Below, in pieces: positions 8,087-16,819 of a stretch of 64,000 bases of DNA. The stretch's first letter is position 1. The number at the start of each line of letters is the position of its first letter. The position numbers were made by a program, and so were the translations under genes. Below the pieces are notes generated by a model. It made no database searches, had not been told where the DNA came from, and was given only the letters and a program-made list of their open reading frames with translations. Origin of the DNA: Acidithiobacillus thiooxidans ATCC 19377 (GTDB lineage: Bacteria > Pseudomonadota > Gammaproteobacteria > Acidithiobacillales > Acidithiobacillaceae); assembly GCF_009662475.1 (NCBI RefSeq), contig NZ_CP045571.1, forward strand, positions 2,416,501 to 2,480,500. The letters are read 5' to 3'.

Positions 8087-8397
8087 GCCTAAGTAGTAAA
8101 AGCTCAGCAATTACGTGAGAGTCATCTTTCTTCAAGCACTATTGAAGCCCGTATGTCGTGGGTAGAAAACTGCTTGGCAGTTGCTTTGAATATATTACAT
8201 AGGTCTAATAATACGATGAGAATATTCTAATGTCCCAACCTGAAGATGTACCCCTTCCTCTTGAGACCATCAGGCAACGTCGCATGAGGACTTGGCTGAT
8301 TGTTGTGTTGGTTATTGAGTTCGTACTGTTGGCAGCTTATTCGATAACGCTGTGGGATATCACCAGTGGACGGTCAGTTTCGGCCAAGAATCTCCAG

Positions 8398-9483
8398 CTA
8401 GTGTAGTGTTGCATTCTGTTTGCTGCTTAAATGGCTGTTGGCGCGAATGACTTTTTGCAGGATGTCGCGGGCGGTTTTGGTCCAGATGAAAGGTTTGGGA
8501 TGGGTGTTGTGGTGGTCGATGTACCCCTCAATGGCCTGGATGAGTTCAGGCACACTGGTGAACACCCCACGACGTAACCGCTGGGTCGTGATATCCCGAA
8601 AGAAACGCTCGACCATGTTGAGCCAGGATGCCGAAGTGGGCGTAAAGTGCATGTGAATACGCGGGTGCTTGTCGAGCCACGCCTGTACTACCGGGTGTTT
8701 ATGGGTCGCATAGTTGTCGGCGATCAAATGCAGAGCCTTGTCCTTGGGCGTCTGCCGATCAATTTTCTTCAGGAACTTCAGCCATTCCACATGGGTATGG
8801 CGCTGTTGACACTGTCCGATGACCTGACCATCCAGCACGTTGAGGGCGGCAAACAAGGTCGTGGTACCATTACGTTTGTAGTCGTGGGTCATCGTTTCTG
8901 CGCGGCCCTTTTTGAGGGGAAGTCCCGGTTGGGTCCGGTCCAGGGCCTGCACCTGACTTTTTTCATCCGCGCAGAGCACCAAGGCATGCTCCGGGGGAGA
9001 CATATACAACCCCACAATATCTTCCAGCTTTTCCACAAAATGCGGGTCACGTGACACCTTGAAACCACGCAGCAGATGAGGCTTGAGGCCATGCTTGCGC
9101 CAATGCCGTGACACACTGGCGGCACTGACACCCAGTTCTGCCGCCATCCTACGCGTACTCCAATGCGTCATCGCTTCCGGCTTACTCTGCGTGGTCAATT
9201 CTACCAGACGGGCCACATCCACTTTCACCGGAGGGGCGCCGCGCGGTAAATCGCGTTCAATGCCCGACAAGCGGTGTTCCAGATAACGCTTGCGCCAACG
9301 TGCGACTTGCAGGCGATCCACCCCCAGGCGCTCCGCAATTTCTTTGTTCTGCAAGCCCTCTGCCGCCAGCAATATCATCCGTGCCCGTAATGACAAGCGG
9401 ACACTGCTTAATCGGGAGGCGACTATACGGGACAACTCGGACCGCTCTTCGCTGGTTAAAGTGACTGTGGGCGCAACTCGCAA
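8398..9483 (-). CDS. IS630-family transposase
   Basis: A 361-residue Tc1/mariner-related DDE transposase. Residues 35-70 form a helix-turn-helix (NKEIAERLGVDRLQVARWRKR), and a second one lies near 107-131. The catalytic acids are D173 (CADEKSQ), D256 (IADNYATH) and E292 (WLNMVERFF). The start is the TTG at 9483, as no in-frame ATG or GTG lies between the upstream stop and it. The stop codon TAG is supplied partly by the TA target site. No lesion is seen. Confidence 0.9.
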   Translation of the reverse strand: MRVAPTVTLTSEERSELSRIVASRLSSVRLSLRARMILLAAEGLQNKEIAERLGVDRLQVARWRKRYLEHRLSGIERDLPRGAPPVKVDVARLVELTTQSKPEAMTHWSTRRMAAELGVSAASVSRHWRKHGLKPHLLRGFKVSRDPHFVEKLEDIVGLYMSPPEHALVLCADEKSQVQALDRTQPGLPLKKGRAETMTHDYKRNGTTTLFAALNVLDGQVIGQCQQRHTHVEWLKFLKKIDRQTPKDKALHLIADNYATHKHPVVQAWLDKHPRIHMHFTPTSASWLNMVERFFRDITTQRLRRGVFTSVPELIQAIEGYIDHHNTHPKPFIWTKTARDILQKVIRANSHLSSKQNATLH

Positions 9484-9565: not shown

Positions 9566-10670
9566 TAGGAACAGTCAGGCAGGGGACCTTTCCTATATTG
9601 ATCCGGTCCCCCGGCACACTTGAACCCCGGATTGAACGATGGGTTACCAGCAATGTTGGTGGAACAGTGCAGCGTTTGTTTGTCCATCCAGGCAGCAGAG
9701 TAAACGTAAATAGTCCATTATTGTCGCTCAGCAACCCTAAGGTCCTTGTACAAGCCCGAAAGGCACAATATGTCCTTACTCGAACAATAGCTCAGCAAAA
9801 AGTACAAAAAGCGACGATGGATGATCAGTTATATGCGTTGGAGGGACAGTTGGCCACTTATAAAACTCAAGCAGACAGCGCCGAGATGCGACTGAAAGCG
9901 GACTTGAGCCTGCTTCGTGAGTCTGTGATCTCCCGACTACAATATGAAACGGATCAACTCACAGCCCGTAACAGTGCAGAACTTGTGGCCTCCATGAAGC
10001 GGCGAATATTGGCTTTTCGCAGAAGCTATAGGGCTCAACTTCAAGGTGAGCAATCGATGATTGCGTCAGCTCGTACCGCTCTTTTGGCGGCTCGAGCCGA
10101 TGTGGCGGCCTTGCAGCCTAAGGCGGGAATGAGCGGCGAAGTACAAACAGTATCCGTACAAGCAGGTGCAAGGCTTAAATCCGGAGGCGCCATCGCCCGC
10201 ATCGCTAATATCCACACGTTGAATGTGATTCTTTCGGTATCGCCTGAAGATGCTGGAGAAATTGCACGCGGTCAGGAAGCAGAAGTACGACTATCGATTC
10301 CCGAAGTGCCGATACTCCACGGCGCCGTTCAAAGAGTATCCCCCAAAGTGGTTCATGGTGAAGTGCCTGTTACCATCCGGCTTCACGGAAAACTTCCCCA
10401 AATCGCCAGGCCGCAACTGCCAGTAACCGTAGTCATCCGAGCAGGTCAATTGGCACACGCTCTTTACGTGGCAACACCTGAAGGTGCTCGGGAAGATAGA
10501 GAAGGTAAGGTCTATGTATTATCTCAAGGGGGGCATAAAGCCACACGTCGGTTGGTGCATTTCGGGTTGGCATCCTCCGCAGGCATCCAAATTCTCTCAG
10601 GACTTAAAGCGGGAGAACGTATTGTCTTGTCAGGAACACCCCACTGGGATGAAACCATGAAAATTCGCCC

Positions 10671-12083
10671 ATGAAACAGATGCAATTGGCCTTGGTAGCA
10701 GGCGTGATTCTGATGCTTGCGAGTTTAAATGCACCGGCTTTAACTCTGGAGCATTTTTGGCAGGAAACGCTTGATCATGATCCACAAGTTCAACTATACC
10801 GTCAGCAATTAGAAGTCGCTTCTCAGTCACAACCCTTGGCTTTAGCCAAGCTGCTGCCTCAGATCAGTGTCCATGCCAGTGCACAATGGGACAACCATCG
10901 TATCCAGAAACCCTATGACAAGTATGACCCGAACAGTGTGCTTTTTTCGAGGGGCCGTCATAATATCATCCAGAGATGGTCTGCGCAGATAAGCCAGACG
11001 CTCTTCAATTGGTCCGCACTGCAAAATTATCGGGCCAGTGGTGATCAAGTCGCTGCAGCAGCGGCGCAGTATCAAGAATCGGTACAAAAACTTGAGCGTA
11101 GTGCCATTGTTGCCTATGGAAATTGGCTTCTAGCCTATGCGAACCTGCAAAACTTAAAAGCCTCTGAGAAGGGGGTCGCACGGCAAGCTTATGCAGCTGA
11201 AGCCCGCTACCGTTCCGGTACCACCGGCATTCTGGGTGCAGATGAAGCCAAAGTCGCTTTAGCCAGAATTCGGGCACAGCTTGCACAAGCTCTCGCCAAG
11301 TGGCATGGGGCGGGTGCTGTACTGGAGCAGTTTACCGGAAAAAAATCGCCCCCGGAGGCCCCTAAGCTGCCTCAAATTATCCATCTGCCGATTCACTTGG
11401 AAAAACAGTGGCAAGCTTTGGCGCTAATTCATAATCCAGCCCTTGCATCAGCTAGATATCAGTTGGATGCATCGCGCAAAGGCGTTGCAGCGGCCCAAGG
11501 GGGATTCTTACCTACTTTGACTCTTGTCCTGGCGCATCAATGGATGTCCGAAAATGGTACCTTATATTTTCAGGGGGCTCAGGAGGGGGCAGGGACTTCA
11601 GGTAGCGGCATTCCTGATCCACATCATTACATTGGGACTTCTGCTACGATACAAATGAATTGGGCAATCTTCTCAGGCGGATCCCAACAAGCAACCTTAG
11701 CGGAGGCCCAGTATCAGGAGGGGGAGAGTTTCTCTACCTTGTTGACCACTGAACGCAGCATCGAGCAAATTCTTCGCACCAGTTCTTCGGGGCTCAGTGG
11801 ATCGTTGCAGCAAGCAAAAATCTATCGTTATTCATTAGCCTTGGCGAAACGTGCGAGCAGAGCGGCCGAAGATGGAGTGCGAGTGGGGCTGGTGACGGAG
11901 AACAATGCGATCATTGATCGACAAAACGCACTTAAGGTGCGTAACGATTTGAATGATGTCAATGCATCCGCCTTAATCCAGTTTGCCAATCTGGCGACAG
12001 CAGCGGGGGTGTTAACTCCGGTACTCATGCACCAAATTTCGCTCTCCCTGTCTCTCGGAGGTAATTACGCAAAGATTCCTTGA
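10671..12083 (+). CDS. TolC-like outer membrane efflux protein
   Basis: 470 residues with an N-terminal signal peptide (cleavage probably after ALNAPA near residue 24), then two repeats of the outer-membrane-efflux helical domain. The protein would form a trimeric outer-membrane and periplasmic channel. The start overlaps the stop of the HlyD-type gene in an ATGA arrangement, so the two were translationally coupled parts of a tripartite pump. With the adaptor disrupted it may lack a partner. The DHA2 permease remnants at 1056-2770 could have been the third component, but this is inference. Confidence 0.85.
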   Translation: MKQMQLALVAGVILMLASLNAPALTLEHFWQETLDHDPQVQLYRQQLEVASQSQPLALAKLLPQISVHASAQWDNHRIQKPYDKYDPNSVLFSRGRHNIIQRWSAQISQTLFNWSALQNYRASGDQVAAAAAQYQESVQKLERSAIVAYGNWLLAYANLQNLKASEKGVARQAYAAEARYRSGTTGILGADEAKVALARIRAQLAQALAKWHGAGAVLEQFTGKKSPPEAPKLPQIIHLPIHLEKQWQALALIHNPALASARYQLDASRKGVAAAQGGFLPTLTLVLAHQWMSENGTLYFQGAQEGAGTSGSGIPDPHHYIGTSATIQMNWAIFSGGSQQATLAEAQYQEGESFSTLLTTERSIEQILRTSSSGLSGSLQQAKIYRYSLALAKRASRAAEDGVRVGLVTENNAIIDRQNALKVRNDLNDVNASALIQFANLATAAGVLTPVLMHQISLSLSLGGNYAKIP

Positions 12084-12409
12084 GCTCAATCACGAACACG
12101 AGCAGCATGTACTATAATAGAGCGTAAAGTTTTTGCAGGTGGTTAATGGTTTTACCAATCAAGACTAATTGGATTTGATATTATCTGAATGAGGACAGGG
12201 GGATCAGGTATAGCAGGAATTAAACTTGGGTGACTTCCGCCCTTTGACAAAACGACAAGGATTGAGTTCACAACATGGTCAACCACGGGATCCTTGAAGG
12301 AGGCCTGCTATGAGTGGCAAGTTGAGGCAGTTAGGAATGTGTTCAAGATAATTCCGTCGAGTTTCTCTTATTAAAATATCTACCTGAAGGACGGGTGCGT
12401 TTTTTCATT
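12084..12409. other. intergenic stretch, no gene seen
   Basis: 326 bases between the efflux gene and the cytochrome b operon promoter, with no credible open frame. An AT-rich stretch near 12110-12175 with short self-complementary pieces could end the efflux transcript, but no clear hairpin followed by a T tract is visible. Confidence 0.4.
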
Positions 12410-12438
12410 TTGAATCATATAGTTGCATGTTATTATAT
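12410..12438 (+). promoter_or_regulatory. predicted sigma70-type promoter for the cytochrome b operon
   Basis: TTGAAT (12410-12415), a 17-base spacer and TTATAT (12433-12438) lie about 45 bases upstream of the first gene of the cytochrome b operon. That gene has a strong AAGGAG ribosome site at 12469-12474. The match to consensus is moderate. Confidence 0.5.
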
Positions 12439-12481
12439 TTGATTCAAGAAGGGCTGAAGTGCAATAAAAAGGAGTTAGATA

Positions 12482-12724
12482 ATGAGTATGAGTTCTTTGC
12501 CTATCATGCACCAACCAGCGGTAGCGCATGTCGTATTTGGTATATTTAACTTGGCATGGCCCAATATTGCTTTTTGGGGAGTGGGCCTGATCATTTTTGC
12601 TGTTGGCATCTATGCACGCATGCCTGAATTCATGGAAATGGACGCTGAAACCAGGCGTCGCTATCAACAGCAAGGTCCATTTTTATATGGCAATGGAGAG
12701 GATGACGAGGAGGCTGGGGAATGA
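12482..12724 (+). CDS. small membrane protein of the cytochrome b operon
   Basis: 80 residues with one or two membrane helices (about 15-48: AHVVFGIFNLAWPNIAFWGVGLIIFAVGIYA) and a strongly acidic C-terminus (NGEDDEEAGE). Its stop overlaps the start of the next gene by four bases (ATGA), implying translational coupling and fixed stoichiometry. It resembles small accessory subunits of respiratory membrane complexes in size and layout only; I recognise no family. Confidence 0.65.
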   Translation: MSMSSLPIMHQPAVAHVVFGIFNLAWPNIAFWGVGLIIFAVGIYARMPEFMEMDAETRRRYQQQGPFLYGNGEDDEEAGE

Positions 12725-13365
12725 ATATCGATAAGGTGCTTCAGAAAGGTCTAAAATCTTTCCTGCCACTGAAAGATGATCTACCTACAGAGATGCCCGC
12801 CTACGTCAACTCGTTTGGTTACTTCTTTGGTACGATGACGCTCGCATCACTGGCAGTAGTATTCATGAGTGGTACGGTATTGGCTTTTTTTGGGCCGGAT
12901 TGGTGGCATTTCAATAGCGTTGGACAATTTTTCAACGCTATGCATTTTTGGAGTGTTGAGGTTTTCTATCTGGCCGTCATTATGCACCTCACGTTTAAGT
13001 TTTTTAAGGCGGCTTGGCGTGGGAACCGCTTTCGTACATGGGTGAATGGATGGATTATTTTCATCATCACCATCTTTTCTGGTATTAGTGGTACTCTCCT
13101 GCAGGCCAACTGGGATGCACAGTGGAATAGTCAGCAAGGAAAGGCTGCCTTCAATGCGTTAGGCCTTTCGTGGATGAACTGGATGAATTACACGACCGTA
13201 CTGACCTTGCATGTAGTCTTTTTCGCCGGTCTGATTCTCTTCTTCGTGGTGACTCACCTTGCTTTTGTGCGCAGCGAGAGTCCGGTGCATCCTATAGTCA
13301 ATGGTGGTAAAGGTGAAATCGACGATGGGAATGCAAGAGCCCTTGGTGAAGGAGATGAGAAATGA
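12721..13365 (+). CDS. cytochrome b, N-terminal (b6-type) subunit
   Basis: 214 residues with four membrane helices. The diheme ligands are visible: H75 and H89 in helix 2 (AMHFWSVEVFYLAVIMHL) and H164 and H179 in helix 4 (LHVVFFAGLILFFVVTHL). The H-x13-H and H-x14-H spacings match cytochrome b6 rather than mitochondrial cytochrome b. It should bind two b hemes and move electrons across the inner membrane from a quinol. It is coupled by four-base overlaps to both neighbours. No Rieske or cytochrome c gene lies nearby, which is unusual for a bc/b6f complex. Confidence 0.85.
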   Translation: MNIDKVLQKGLKSFLPLKDDLPTEMPAYVNSFGYFFGTMTLASLAVVFMSGTVLAFFGPDWWHFNSVGQFFNAMHFWSVEVFYLAVIMHLTFKFFKAAWRGNRFRTWVNGWIIFIITIFSGISGTLLQANWDAQWNSQQGKAAFNALGLSWMNWMNYTTVLTLHVVFFAGLILFFVVTHLAFVRSESPVHPIVNGGKGEIDDGNARALGEGDEK

Positions 13366-14351
13366 GCGTTCTTTCAGATAAAAATCTTCGGGGTTATCCA
13401 ATGAAGCCCTACGATATGGTGCGCGAAGGGCTGATAGTGTTTGGTGTTATGCTGACCATTATTTTGGTATTGGCTGCCGTTTGGGGGTTTCCGGGAAAGA
13501 ATTACGGTCCACTGACAATTAAGGAAGTGGCTACCAAGGCTCCAGTCGCATTCCTGAAGCGCACTGTTTCCTACTTTTCTGGAACCAGTCGCCTACAGAC
13601 CTATGGACCTCCTTACACCCATAATGACAACCATGCCCAACACATTGGGCCATTCTGTCCGAATTGTTGGGTAGGGGTTATATATCCACTGAATGCCAAA
13701 GTTGATTTCGTGATGCAGCCTTTGCAGCAAATTGCGGCTCTTGATCCGAATGTGGCAACCGCTCTAAACACATACCAAAATGCAAGCGCTAAGCAACAGA
13801 CAGAATGGAATAACGCATATACTTCGGCACTTAATAAAGCCCAGGTTACGCATGGACGTGTAGTGTTACCGGCGGGCGATTATGGGCCAGTCCCCGTTTT
13901 GATGAACGGTATGCTTACATTTGCTCGTACGGGCTTGTTGGAAGCCGCGCTTACTTTCAATACTAACCCCAACATGGCACCCTATGAGACCAATTATACA
14001 CGCCCACTTTTGTATTTGGGCGGCCCCATAATGAATACAGTAGCAGGTCATTTTGATGAAAAGGGTGGAGAGTGGGGTATGTCCCATATAGCCGGGCCTT
14101 ATCCTGGAGCGTGGTGGTTGTGGCCCTATACATTCTTGTATCAGATACCAGCGATCGGAAATTCACCAAATGGTGATCTTATTGCCTTTTTGATTTTCCT
14201 CGTAATGTTATTGATTGCGGTACTGGCGCCGGTGATTCCTGGGCTTAATCGGATTCCTTACGTTATTCCAGTTTACAAGATCATATGGCGCGATTGGTAT
14301 GCGAAGTATCCTTCTGGGATTCCGAGCAACGCATCAAGGAAGAGAGTATAA
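13362..14351 (+). CDS. cytochrome b C-terminal (subunit IV-like) protein with large insert
   Basis: 329 residues. A membrane helix at about 22-44 is followed by a soluble segment of some 210 residues, probably periplasmic. A membrane-proximal aromatic stretch (PGAWWLWPYTFLYQIP, 248-263) and helices near 272-305 follow. The aromatic stretch is where the Qo-site PEWY motif would be, but the Glu is absent. The insert carries a CPNC pair (C99, C102) after a His-rich run (THNDNHAQH). The start overlaps the b6-type gene by four bases. Assignment rests on operon context and helix layout more than on similarity. Confidence 0.6.
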   Translation: MSVLSDKNLRGYPMKPYDMVREGLIVFGVMLTIILVLAAVWGFPGKNYGPLTIKEVATKAPVAFLKRTVSYFSGTSRLQTYGPPYTHNDNHAQHIGPFCPNCWVGVIYPLNAKVDFVMQPLQQIAALDPNVATALNTYQNASAKQQTEWNNAYTSALNKAQVTHGRVVLPAGDYGPVPVLMNGMLTFARTGLLEAALTFNTNPNMAPYETNYTRPLLYLGGPIMNTVAGHFDEKGGEWGMSHIAGPYPGAWWLWPYTFLYQIPAIGNSPNGDLIAFLIFLVMLLIAVLAPVIPGLNRIPYVIPVYKIIWRDWYAKYPSGIPSNASRKRV

Positions 14352-14403
14352 CGCGCGGTTTTTTGTTACTGTATGACAATGTTCAAAAAAGAAGCTGGGA
14401 GTG

Positions 14404-14430
14404 TTAGCCTCGAAACTCTGTCGGGGCTAA
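14404..14430 (+). other. short hairpin between cytochrome b operon genes
   Basis: TTAGCC (14404-14409) and GGCTAA (14425-14430) can pair, in the 116-base gap before the last small gene. No T tract follows, so it is more likely an attenuating or stabilising structure than a terminator. Confidence 0.35.
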
Positions 14431-14467
14431 GGATGGCTTGTCTAGACACAATCAATCAGGAGGTATT

Positions 14468-14812
14468 ATGACTACGTTTGACCTGCAGGCTGCACTATCA
14501 CGTGCCATGACACTAGAAAATATAGATCCTCTGGACGCTGCTACAATCGCAGCGGCCGAGCAGTTGAGCGGCAAAGACGGACTAACCTTGGACACCGCAT
14601 TACCTATCCTGGGTAATGAACAGCTTATTGAACTCATTGGTTTTCTGAACGATAGCATAAACTGTCAACAGCTTTCAGAGCTTTGCGACAAAGAGTTCTA
14701 TAATGCTGAACAAGCCCGAGAATGGGAAGTCACAGAACAGCAGTACCGTTTAGCTCATGAAGTCGCTCTATTGAGCCACCTCATTGAACAAAAAAAGGAA
14801 GGTATCGGTTAG
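14468..14812 (+). CDS. hypothetical cytoplasmic protein downstream of cytochrome b genes
   Basis: 114 residues, helical and acidic, without signal or membrane segments. ATG 14468 is chosen because CAGGAGG ends seven bases upstream; an upstream in-frame start at 14438 lacks a site. Two cysteines (INCQQLSELCDKEF) sit six residues apart. No family is recognised. It follows the cytochrome b genes on the same strand after a 116-base gap and may be an assembly or maturation factor, but that is a guess from position. Confidence 0.6.
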   Translation: MTTFDLQAALSRAMTLENIDPLDAATIAAAEQLSGKDGLTLDTALPILGNEQLIELIGFLNDSINCQQLSELCDKEFYNAEQAREWEVTEQQYRLAHEVALLSHLIEQKKEGIG

Positions 14813-15062
14813 TAATTTACCAGGTAATATTAGAGGATGTTTATATGGGTAGTTGGATTTGTGCTGACTGCCAATTGATTTTTTTGGTTCTGTGTTGATC
14901 TTCTTTATAAATAAATAATGCTTAATTTACATTAGATTTTGTTTTCAACTACACACTGAACCACAGCGCGAAGCTATAATGAGCGTTACATCCAGGCGAC
15001 AACTATATCTCTAAGATTTATTTGCAATTTATTGGTTGGCAAGACCATAAAATATAGTAAAC

Positions 15063-15335
15063 CTATAATTCACCAGAAATTCTAGCCTCTTCCGCAAGCA
15101 ATAGAATATAGAAATACACACCGATAGATAATCCCATTATAAAAATAGACAGTACTTGCGCCACAGTGGTAAATCTTACTCCCAATGTAATGAATAGGGT
15201 AAGAGCTGGAATCAGTAGACATAACAGAGCCCATGCCAGCAAGATATGGTGATGCTTTATATCGTACTTCTTTGCCCATCGGTGAATAGGTCGAATGATA
15301 AATAACATAATTAAACCTGCTGAAAGCAACGACAA
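15063..15335 (-). CDS. small membrane protein, hypothetical
   Basis: 90 residues with three likely helices (about 3-14, 31-52 and 58-80) and a short charged loop (RPIHRWAKKYDIKHHH). No strong ribosome site is visible. The coherent helix pattern favours a real gene or a remnant of one. No family is recognised. Confidence 0.4.
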   Translation of the reverse strand: MSLLSAGLIMLFIIRPIHRWAKKYDIKHHHILLAWALLCLLIPALTLFITLGVRFTTVAQVLSIFIMGLSIGVYFYILLLAEEARISGEL

Positions 15336-15596
15336 AAATTGAAGATTATCAAAAAAAATGTAGCTTCAGTTTAGGCCGTTCTGAGCAAGTGGTCAAGAGC
15401 TCTAAAATCTCAACATTGAATCAGTCAGATTGATCACTGGTCCCATTTTTGCAAACAATTTCCAAAGGTTATCTGGCGACTCACATAAGGTGGTTTTGTT
15501 GTGTATTGGGCATCCAGTAAATAAATGAGCACGTTATCATCAGCGCTCGCCGGATTTTCGGGTTACTGTGAGTAAACCGTGGCCCAGGCCACACTA

Positions 15597-16266
15597 GTGT
15601 GGTGTTGCACTCTTGGTGAAACTTAAGGTTTATGATGATAAAACAGCTCCATGTGGATGTGGCCCGTCTGGTAGAATTGACCACGCAGAGTAAGCCGGAG
15701 ATGAAAAAAGTCAGGTACAGGCCCTGGACCGGACCCAACCGGGACTTCCCCTCAAAAAGGGCCGCGCAGAAACGATGACCCACGACTACAAACGTAATGG
15801 CACTACGACCTTGTTTGCCGCACTCAACGTGCTGGATGGCCAGGTCATCGGGCAGTGTCAACAGCGACATACCCATGTGGAATGGCTGAAGTTCCTGAAG
15901 AAAATTGATCGGCAGACGCCCAAGGACAAGGCTCTGCATCTGATCGCCGACAACTATGCGACCCATAAACACCCGGTAGTACAGGCGTGGCTCGACAAGC
16001 ACCCGCGTATTCACATGCACTTTACGCCCACTTCAGCATCCTGGCTCAACATGGTCGAGCGTTTCTTTCGGGATATCACGACCCAGCGATTACGTCGTGG
16101 GGTGTTCACCAGTGTGCCTGAACTCATCCAGGCCATTGAGGGGTACATCGACCACCACAACACCCATCCCAAATCCTTCATCTTGACCAAAACCGCCCGC
16201 GACATCCTGCAAAAGGTCATTCGCGCCAACAGCCACTTAAGCAGCAAACAGAATGCAACACTACAC
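15597..16266 (+). mobile_element. internally deleted IS630-family element (670 bp)
   Basis: Terminal repeats GTGTGGTGTTGCACTC (15597-15612) and the complement of GTGTAGTGTTGCATTC (16251-16266) are flanked by TA on both sides. Compared with the full copy at 8401-9565, two internal stretches are missing, one after the leader near 15655 and one near 15700. The transposase helix-turn-helix domains and first catalytic Asp are thus gone. The remaining frame from 15775 keeps the second Asp and the Glu. It could only move with a transposase supplied by another copy. Confidence 0.88.
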
Positions 16267-16269
16267 TAG
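15775..16269 (+). pseudogene. IS630 transposase, C-terminal remnant
   Basis: 164 codons nearly identical to the last part of the transposase at 8398-9483, with only a few substitutions ([14 protein letters not shown] in place of [14 protein letters not shown]). It retains IADNYATH and WLNMVERFF but lacks the DNA-binding region and first catalytic Asp. It cannot be catalytic, although a truncated product might interfere with the intact enzyme. Confidence 0.85.
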
Positions 16270-16819
16270 CAGCCCCTCGGCTTTAACTTCGGACTACCCC
16301 CCAATTCCCCCGTTTTTTGTGGTTTATCTGCATCTTTCTGCCATACAGACGCAAAATGACCATGCGTTTCATGTTCCAAGACATGGATATTAGATGTCAC
16401 TTCTCTTGAGCCTGTCGCAGCCCGCGCAAGGAGATCTGCCGGATCCCATCACCGATTCGATGATACAGTAAATCGAATGGTTGTGATTCTCGAAAACTGT
16501 TCTTAAAAGACTGCCACGGATTACGGCCATAGTGACGAGTTGCGAAAAGCATGATGGACTGTCCGCTGAACGACCGCTTCCGCTGCAATCTCGTCATTCG
16601 CCTTCGCAAGTCAGGAATGTTTCGCCACTAGGTAACAAATGTGATTACCCGTCATAAACCATGATGCGATCCGTTACTGCACAGAACGACACCTATTGTG
16701 AACGATTCCGTTTAGCCTTTTTTGCATAATGTCTTTTTTAACGCTGTCTGTCACCGTTTTGCAGAACGATGGCTGCATAACCTATAATGCAGTTCGTTCA
16801 AAAGCCCTGTCCTAGAGGA
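16270..16819. other. intergenic stretch, no gene seen
   Basis: 550 bases between the deleted IS630 copy and a helix-turn-helix protein gene. One minus-strand frame (16397-16609, 70 codons, rich in Arg) has no recognisable similarity or ribosome site and is not called. An AT-rich stretch around 16700-16790 probably holds the promoter of the next gene. Confidence 0.4.

Follow-up and report, generated by a model that had tools for sequence, protein, structure and literature searches.

A three-gene cassette in Acidithiobacillus thiooxidans encodes a candidate Rieske-free diheme cytochrome b of the b6/subunit-IV type

The stretch analyzed here of the genome of Acidithiobacillus thiooxidans ATCC 19377, an acidophile that oxidizes sulfur, (contig NZ_CP045571.1, positions 2,416,501 to 2,480,500; 64,000 nucleotides, hereafter the window) contains three tightly packed open reading frames (ORFs) on the forward strand at 12482-14351, each of which shares an ATGA overlap with the next, and the first of which is preceded by a Shine-Dalgarno-like stretch (Table 1). 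As a preliminary description of this DNA had claimed, they are coupled and encode a small membrane protein (p1), a four-helix cytochrome b6-type protein (p2) and a subunit-IV-like protein (p3). A promoter scan gave three sites, against a mean of 6.1 in shuffled sequences, and hence no excess. These genes form a real and conserved cassette that represents an as yet unnamed branch within the superfamily of Rieske/cytochrome b complexes; neither a Rieske gene nor a cytochrome c gene was found beside it, and the motif of the quinol-oxidation (Qo) site is missing.

Table 1. Features of the cassette in the window, and Rieske genes of an Acidihalobacter genome (G568).
Feature	Position	Strand	Description and basis
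p1	12482..12724	+	80 aa, single hydrophobic stretch; small cassette subunit (ORF list, hydropathy, position in 13/13 loci)
p2	12721..13365	+	cytochrome b6-type protein of 214 aa with two sites for heme b (PF13631, family profile against PDB b6, fold search)
H75 codon	12943..12945	+	heme ligand, helix B, 14 before H89 (38/38 members, spacing)
H89 codon	12985..12987	+	heme ligand (38/38 members)
H164 codon	13210..13212	+	heme ligand (38/38 members)
H179 codon	13255..13257	+	heme ligand, 15 after H164 (38/38 members)
p3	13362..14351	+	329-aa subunit-IV-like protein, two membrane helices (weak profile match to cytochrome b ef loop/helix F, fused homologue)
KPYDMVRE	13404..13427	+	start of helix E, like HPYYSVKD of bc1 cytochrome b (alignment of 39 members and canonical sequences)
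Outside insert	13494..14102	+	about 200 residues, mainly helical in model, no conserved Cys/His metal site (model, alignment)
CPNC (C99-C102)	13656..13667	+	only in five proteobacterial members of the 39-sequence alignment
PGAWW	14103..14117	+	stands where the Qo motif PEWY would be (alignment, profile match)
Rieske gene, G568	L104:3126-3707	-	bc-type Rieske of the twin-arginine translocation (TAT) type; no adjacent cytochrome b
Rieske gene, G568	L105:4545-5165	+	bc-type Rieske of the TAT type; no adjacent cytochrome b

Several comparisons place p2 among the b6-type cytochromes. The protein matches PF13631 at 2.8e-7 and PDB cytochrome b6 at 3.4e-6 as a single sequence and at 1e-17 as a family profile. 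Its predicted fold returned nine PDB matches at E <= 0.001, namely eight b6-sized chains of cytochrome b6f and one from the bc-oxidase supercomplex of a mycobacterium; the top match was 2e74_A (E 8e-5, TM-score 0.49), and the hydrogenase cytochrome b 4gd3 reached a Foldseek E of only 0.83. As in Rieske/cytochrome b complexes generally, p2 has a cytochrome b core of four helices and two pairs of His, and the pairs H75/H89 and H164/H179 keep their spacing of 14 and 15 in all 38 family members. The preliminary description was right in reading p2 as a b6-type protein with both heme His pairs at b6f spacing, although this spacing is not diagnostic of b6f versus bc1, because three of the four canonical cytochromes b checked share it, including the bc1 cytochrome of another Acidithiobacillus genome (G006) and QcrB of Alicyclobacillus. 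In cytochrome b6f, a Cys in helix A binds heme c_n covalently; the Tyr-Cys of b6 helix A aligns with Tyr-Leu in the family consensus and with Tyr-Phe in the window, and this b6f feature is therefore absent. Against the ExtP family model (NF040969), p2 scores 28.2 bits, below the curated cut-off of 290 bits.

The third protein, p3, has two hydrophobic segments (residues 17-47 and 265-302) separated by about 200 residues. Searches of Pfam, NCBIfam and PDB with p3, both singly and as a 13-member family, gave no significant match, and PF00032, the C-terminal cytochrome b/subunit IV domain, does not match it. The profile search that had been suggested for this protein found nothing in the databases and gave one weak alignment to canonical C-terminal cytochrome b: a profile of 39 members from which the insert had been removed scored 33.0 against eight canonical domains (E 1.2e-4 for one pair, probability 55%), the best of 100 column-shuffled trimmed profiles scored 20.5, and the profile with the insert retained scored 35.8 (E 2.2e-4, probability 45%). 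The match spans the ef loop and helix F, not helix E. At the start of helix E, the motif listed in Table 1 is kept, with D18 and E22 in 36 of the 39 members and Arg or Lys at position 21 in all of them; these positions presumably line the quinone site on the inner (N) side of the membrane.

At the opposite site, the PEWY motif is absent from p3, as had been noted, and the insert with its Cys pair and several His residues is present. The place of the Qo motif reads PG[AP][VW]W in 35 of the 39 members, VGPWY in three and PAAWW in one, so that the canonical P-x-W-Y/F feature is missing throughout. Residue 243, five positions before PG[AP], is Glu or Asp in 34/39 members and hydrophobic in exactly the five that carry the Cys pair; this acid may have a role at the outer site in most members, the window's protein excepted. 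The earlier argument that the lack of the Qo Glu precludes bifurcation is weakened by this nearby acid and by the cytochrome bc1 of Acidithiobacillus, which reads PPWY, and the absence of a Rieske protein is a better argument. The charged residues that flank both helices on their presumed cytoplasmic sides suggest, under the positive-inside rule, that the insert should lie outside the membrane. The preliminary description had suggested that electrons perhaps pass via the insert. A redox function of its CPNC pair was rejected, and a route through the pair and the His run is not supported: the Cys pair occurs in 5/39 members, all of them proteobacterial, the His run is not conserved, and between residues 45 and 247 no single His, Cys, Asp or Glu reaches 80%. 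Neither the pair nor the run is typical of the family, which makes a redox relay through the insert unlikely. The residues that are kept are mostly Pro, Gly, Trp, Tyr and Leu (for example P61, Y85, P120, W149, G175, P176, L185, G191, W238 and G239), a pattern as in a structural domain. A VIA-align comparison of the p3 model gave Z <= 3.4, chiefly to single helices, and is uninformative on the insert.

The same three-gene order was found at 13 further loci, collected in a single scan of GTDB genome contigs with patterns derived from p3, so that the presence of p3 follows from the construction of the sample. The loci span Pseudomonadota, Spirochaetota and Bacillota: two belong to Acidihalobacter, one each to Oricola nitratireducens, a Pseudomonadota metagenome-assembled genome (MAG), Alicyclobacillus ferrooxydans, Alicyclobacillus ALC3 and Acidithiobacillus sulfurivorans, two to Spirochaetota MAGs and four to Bacillota MAGs. 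At all 13, p2 lies next to p3 (at L019, p3 runs off the contig) and a short hydrophobic ORF lies immediately 5′ of p2; in a tblastn search with p1 over these loci, seven match at 3e-5 or better, three at only about 0.01, and three are assigned by position and hydropathy only. The cassette is common in the order of Alicyclobacillus ALC3 (Alicyclobacillales), where 29 of 59 genomes have p3 matches, several of them two to five times. In the genus of the window, it is present in 2 of 17 genomes. Among 144 relatives, p3 matches the window's genome and one other, G010; among 188, p2 matches these two, the Acidihalobacter genome G568 in two copies, and three weaker candidates (2.6e-6 to 4.9e-4), of which, by eye, two are canonical cytochromes b (L011, L013) and one is an unrelated transporter-like ORF (L012). 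A 398-genome phylum sample returned the window's own genome and five weak matches (9.8e-4 to 0.01) that were judged to be chance. A sample of 392 genomes from the phylum of G579, a Spirochaetota MAG, returned G579, a fused homologue in G1027 and a weak match in G849, which was set aside as its region carries cell-division genes by eye. No relatives were found in plasmids or viral contigs, and no description of the family was found in open-access literature text, although it may be in print elsewhere.

A maximum-likelihood tree built from 46 b6 sequences unites the 38 members with the fused relative in a single clade (ultrafast bootstrap 99), from which seven canonical cytochromes b stand apart. 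The window sequence stands beside copy 1 of Acidihalobacter, within a group of three supported at 96. Between these two, the nonsynonymous divergence (dN) is 0.21 for p2 and 0.19 for p3, and the method returned no synonymous value (dS). The missing dS is read as saturation, and the proteins therefore appear to be constrained. Two further observations concern Alicyclobacillus. In ALC3, a third, divergent branch of the cassette (L052:1870-8923), which is without the helix-E motif, lies by eye beside a CcdA-like gene and several that are thioredoxin-like, and a CsoR-like regulator is encoded downstream (9938-10234 of that locus); in A. ferrooxydans, an ORF resembling LarC by eye carries a very long His-His-Asp repeat (L053:4311-5705, minus strand).

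The genes around the cassette are not conserved. Neighborhoods were compared at 28 loci that had been selected for a match to p3 or b6; 25 of them were new (Alicyclobacillales and a single Bacillota MAG), and the others were L021, L022 and L027. The ORF picker used keeps the longest of overlapping ORFs, so that short genes may escape. The p3 and b6 genes occur together at all 28 (the picker shows this at 27, and tblastn at L070), and the other neighbors vary, the commonest clusters being another small hydrophobic ORF at six loci and a response regulator at five; the rest occur at four or fewer. Neither among the 121 neighboring ORFs of the window and the 13 loci nor among the 248 of the 28 loci was there a CxxCH motif, a bc-type Rieske motif, or a cytochrome c1 or f adjacent to the cytochrome b gene; the search for c cytochromes did not extend to whole genomes. 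The cassette has no conserved redox neighbor, and because the neighbors change and these motifs are lacking nearby, the orphan status that had been noted for the window holds for the whole family. A Rieske oxygenase-like gene upstream of the cassette at L021 and L027 was discarded as a partner, the two loci being near-identical and the protein not of the bc type. A sulfur function, considered on account of a CysB-like LysR regulator beside one Acidihalobacter cassette, was also dropped, as that gene recurs only in the sister genome (L016, L141).

That the b6 and subunit-IV-like genes form one unit, as had been proposed, is borne out by their pairing at every locus and by the fused homologue, a 507-aa ORF of G1027 (L142:7182-8705, minus strand), which belongs to the same phylum as G579. 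Its b6 part matches at 2.1e-49 and its p3 part at 3.2e-22 (single-sequence E-values), and it keeps PGAWW; the best NCBIfam match is NF040969 (ExtP) at 4.2e-16, with 59.4 bits against the cut-off of 290 bits. This fusion is strong evidence that the two proteins belong together. The fused gene sits between a polyprenyl synthase gene and a UbiA-family (UbiA/MenA-like) gene, beyond which lie MenA (above the TIGR00751 cut-off), MenG and an NADH-dehydrogenase-like gene; about 10 kb beyond these are genes that by eye encode a heme-copper oxidase. Such a menaquinone-biosynthesis neighborhood points to a link with quinone.

At the genome level, the complete genome of the window has no match to PF00032, whereas the same search gives matches in 7 of 14 control genomes. 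This absence agrees with a passage of PMC8528912 in which bc1 operons are confined to the iron-oxidizing Acidithiobacillus clade. PF00032 is missing from 8 of the 17 genomes of the genus, including the window's and G010, and from 11 of 20 other cassette genomes, including that of Alicyclobacillus ALC3 (G586, titled complete); the remaining 9/20 have a canonical cytochrome b domain. Because the five cassette-free genomes in the comparison are also without PF00032, the absence of a bc complex shows no link with the cassette. A Rieske domain of one type or another (PF00355) occurs in all 21 genomes searched, 17 of which have the cassette. Every such hit was typed in eight cassette genomes without PF00032, of which six are drafts or MAGs from which genes may be missing, and no bc-type Rieske protein was found in seven of the eight (the window's genome, G010, G578, G579, G584, G586 and G596). 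The proteins typed include a fusion of NifU-like and Rieske parts in the window's genome, a NirD-like protein in G010 and a partial ORF in G584; of the genomes that also have a canonical cytochrome b, a single hit was typed, in G581, and is of the bc type. From these genomes, the cassette would seem to need neither a bc complex nor a bc-type Rieske protein. The fusion, at L093, is the sole PF00355 match of the window's genome and reads by eye as a 305-aa NifU-like/Rieske ferredoxin.

These data are best explained, with a probability of roughly 0.55, by a Rieske-free, non-bifurcating, quinone-linked transmembrane diheme cytochrome b of the b6/subunit-IV fold, in which an outside domain takes the place of the Rieske protein. 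According to this model, p1, p2 and p3 would form one membrane complex in which electrons pass along the two b hemes between a cytoplasmic-side quinone site, marked by KPYD-x-x-[RK]-E of helix E, and a remodeled outer site, which the helical domain of about 200 residues would cover where the Rieske head docks in canonical complexes. Because a one-electron high-potential acceptor is missing, no bifurcation is expected, and the complex would be a plain quinone oxidoreductase. A diheme wire without bifurcation is the simplest reading of an outer domain that would lie at the Rieske place, a rebuilt outer motif and a conserved inner one. On the outer side, electrons are most likely exchanged with a small molecule that diffuses freely (for instance oxygen, superoxide, ferric iron or a sulfur compound), with a shared carrier or with another pool of quinone; a non-quinone partner or a second pool is favored because oxidizing quinol outside and reducing quinone inside within one pool would merely short-circuit the proton gradient. 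The wider proposal, which is held a little below even odds, is that a separate Rieske-free b6/IV class extends across Pseudomonadota, Spirochaetota and Bacillota and also exists as one fused chain, that its helical outside domain occupies the Rieske docking place, and that the diheme core would work by itself as a quinone-linked oxidoreductase across the membrane, also in organisms that lack every kind of bc complex.

Several findings weigh against this model. The predicted structures of p2 and p3 have low confidence (mean pLDDT 67.4 and 64.7, respectively), and the AlphaFold model of p3 has no PDB match at E <= 0.001; the profile match of p3 to subunit IV covers 40 columns only, at the probability of 55% given above. 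The third branch of the family loses the helix-E motif, with Tyr in place of E22 in 3/39 members, and the acid beside the rebuilt outer motif, kept in most members, leaves room for outer quinol chemistry. The quinone-gene neighborhood was seen in one genome only. Finally, the eighth typed genome, that of Acidihalobacter (G568), is without PF00032 and has two bc-type Rieske genes together with two cassettes, so that a Rieske protein could act in trans there, the only result that points this way. A Rieske gene co-occurring in a relative, which the preliminary description had named as evidence against its reading, is thus present in this one genome. A one-contig sister genome of Acidihalobacter (G646) also has two cassettes. 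By eye, one of the G568 Rieske genes neighbors a two-component system and the other an NHL-repeat-like protein.

The Acidihalobacter genes raise the alternative that the cassette encodes a normal Rieske/cytochrome b complex that bifurcates quinol electrons with a Rieske protein encoded elsewhere. In addition to the two unlinked genes of G568, the nine cassette genomes in which a canonical cytochrome b domain occurs could contain a Rieske protein available to both complexes. On the other hand, none of the PF00355 hits of the window's complete genome, G010 or ALC3 is of the bc type, and the presumed docking face would be covered by the insert in every full-length member, which makes this alternative improbable.

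The variable neighborhoods are also compatible with a quinone-linked enzyme of oxygen or superoxide, which would need no protein partner and would either pass an electron from a reactive oxygen species through the outer heme to quinone or reduce oxygen outside with quinol electrons. CybB of Escherichia coli, for example, takes an electron from superoxide to heme and on to quinone. Two Trp residues in the outer part, W149 and W238, are invariant (39/39), and the named isolates with the cassette are presumably aerobes, whereas no oxidative-stress gene was recognized by eye among the recurring neighbor clusters; such an enzyme is considered unlikely.

For an outward conduit, in which quinol would be oxidized and the electrons delivered to ferric iron or another outside acceptor, the neighborhood of the fused homologue is suggestive, with its NADH-dehydrogenase-like gene and two UbiA/MenA-like genes, a set reminiscent of loci for flavin-based electron export. 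Acidic, iron-rich environments are the source of some hosts, to judge from the name in the case of Alicyclobacillus ferrooxydans, although Oricola is a marine species and is not known as an acidophile. A passage of PMC8528912 gives an acidic ferruginous stream as the source of A. sulfurivorans RW2, and one in PMC8790237 lists ferric reduction for A. thiooxidans and A. tolerans. However, there is no CxxCH protein among the neighboring ORFs and no conserved neighbor to take the electrons onward, and the insert has no conserved Cys/His metal site, so that a conduit of this kind appears a distinctly poor candidate.

In A. thiooxidans, the cassette probably belongs to a mobile island that is shared by two species of Acidithiobacillus. 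Positions 12339-15597 are 99.1% identical to A. sulfurivorans, and the G+C content of the cassette is 46.8%, compared with 52.6% for the window. Inverted IS630-type copies of 571 nt with 97% identity (8397-8967 and 15700-16270) bracket a 6.7-kb stretch that carries an efflux adaptor gene, a TolC-like gene and the cassette, and 15598-16262 reads as an insertion relative to A. sulfurivorans. This setting, together with the restriction of the cassette to two genomes of the genus, would fit a gene set that was acquired recently or is in decay and has no function for its host. The three intact frames and the constraint on the family across phyla argue otherwise, and decay is regarded as rather improbable. 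The preliminary description had extended the region to 14812; its cassette part holds, and its end takes in a 124-aa ORF (14438-14812) outside the conserved cassette. This ORF has no family match in Pfam or NCBIfam and is shared, among the loci compared, only with the near-identical island of A. sulfurivorans. The efflux genes (9598-12083), an adaptor of the resistance-nodulation-division type (TIGR01730) and a TolC family gene, adjoin the insertion sequence, and the ORF list has no adjacent inner-membrane pump gene.

In the textbook view, cytochrome b of the bc/b6f superfamily oxidizes quinol in partnership with a Rieske protein. If the model is true, a branch that keeps the two hemes and has dispensed with the Rieske protein and cytochrome c would reveal the function of the core by itself, would bear on the origin or loss of electron bifurcation, and would name a missing electron-transport step in acidophiles without bc1; with three small genes, the cassette is directly testable. 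Cytochrome b6f (PetB/PetD) and the Bacillus-type QcrB/QcrC resemble the cassette in their split b6 and subunit IV and in the b6 fold, and QcrB also in the His spacing of 14 and 15. The cassette differs from both in having no adjacent Rieske or cytochrome f/c gene, in PG[AP]xW in place of PEWY, in the outside insert of about 200 residues in p3 and its lack of a third subunit IV helix, and in having no Cys (in the window, Phe) at the position where one binds the covalent heme of b6f. ExtP of Geobacter (NF040969) is likewise a small b6-type cytochrome, but, unlike the cassette, it adjoins a Rieske protein (ExtO), ExtQ and multiheme c cytochromes, as stated in a passage of PMC5877670. The cytochrome bc1 complexes of iron-oxidizing Acidithiobacillus (petI/petII) belong to the same superfamily, and helix E of their cytochrome b starts with HPYYSVKD where p3 has KPYDMVRE; in contrast to the cassette, they have a one-piece cytochrome b with Rieske and c1 proteins. 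In CybB, FdnI/HyaC and STEAP, diheme b cytochromes act alone or as anchors, and their hemes wire a quinone site to the outer face. These proteins differ from the b6 type in helix bundle and heme-ligand pattern, but the cassette possibly works in the same way.

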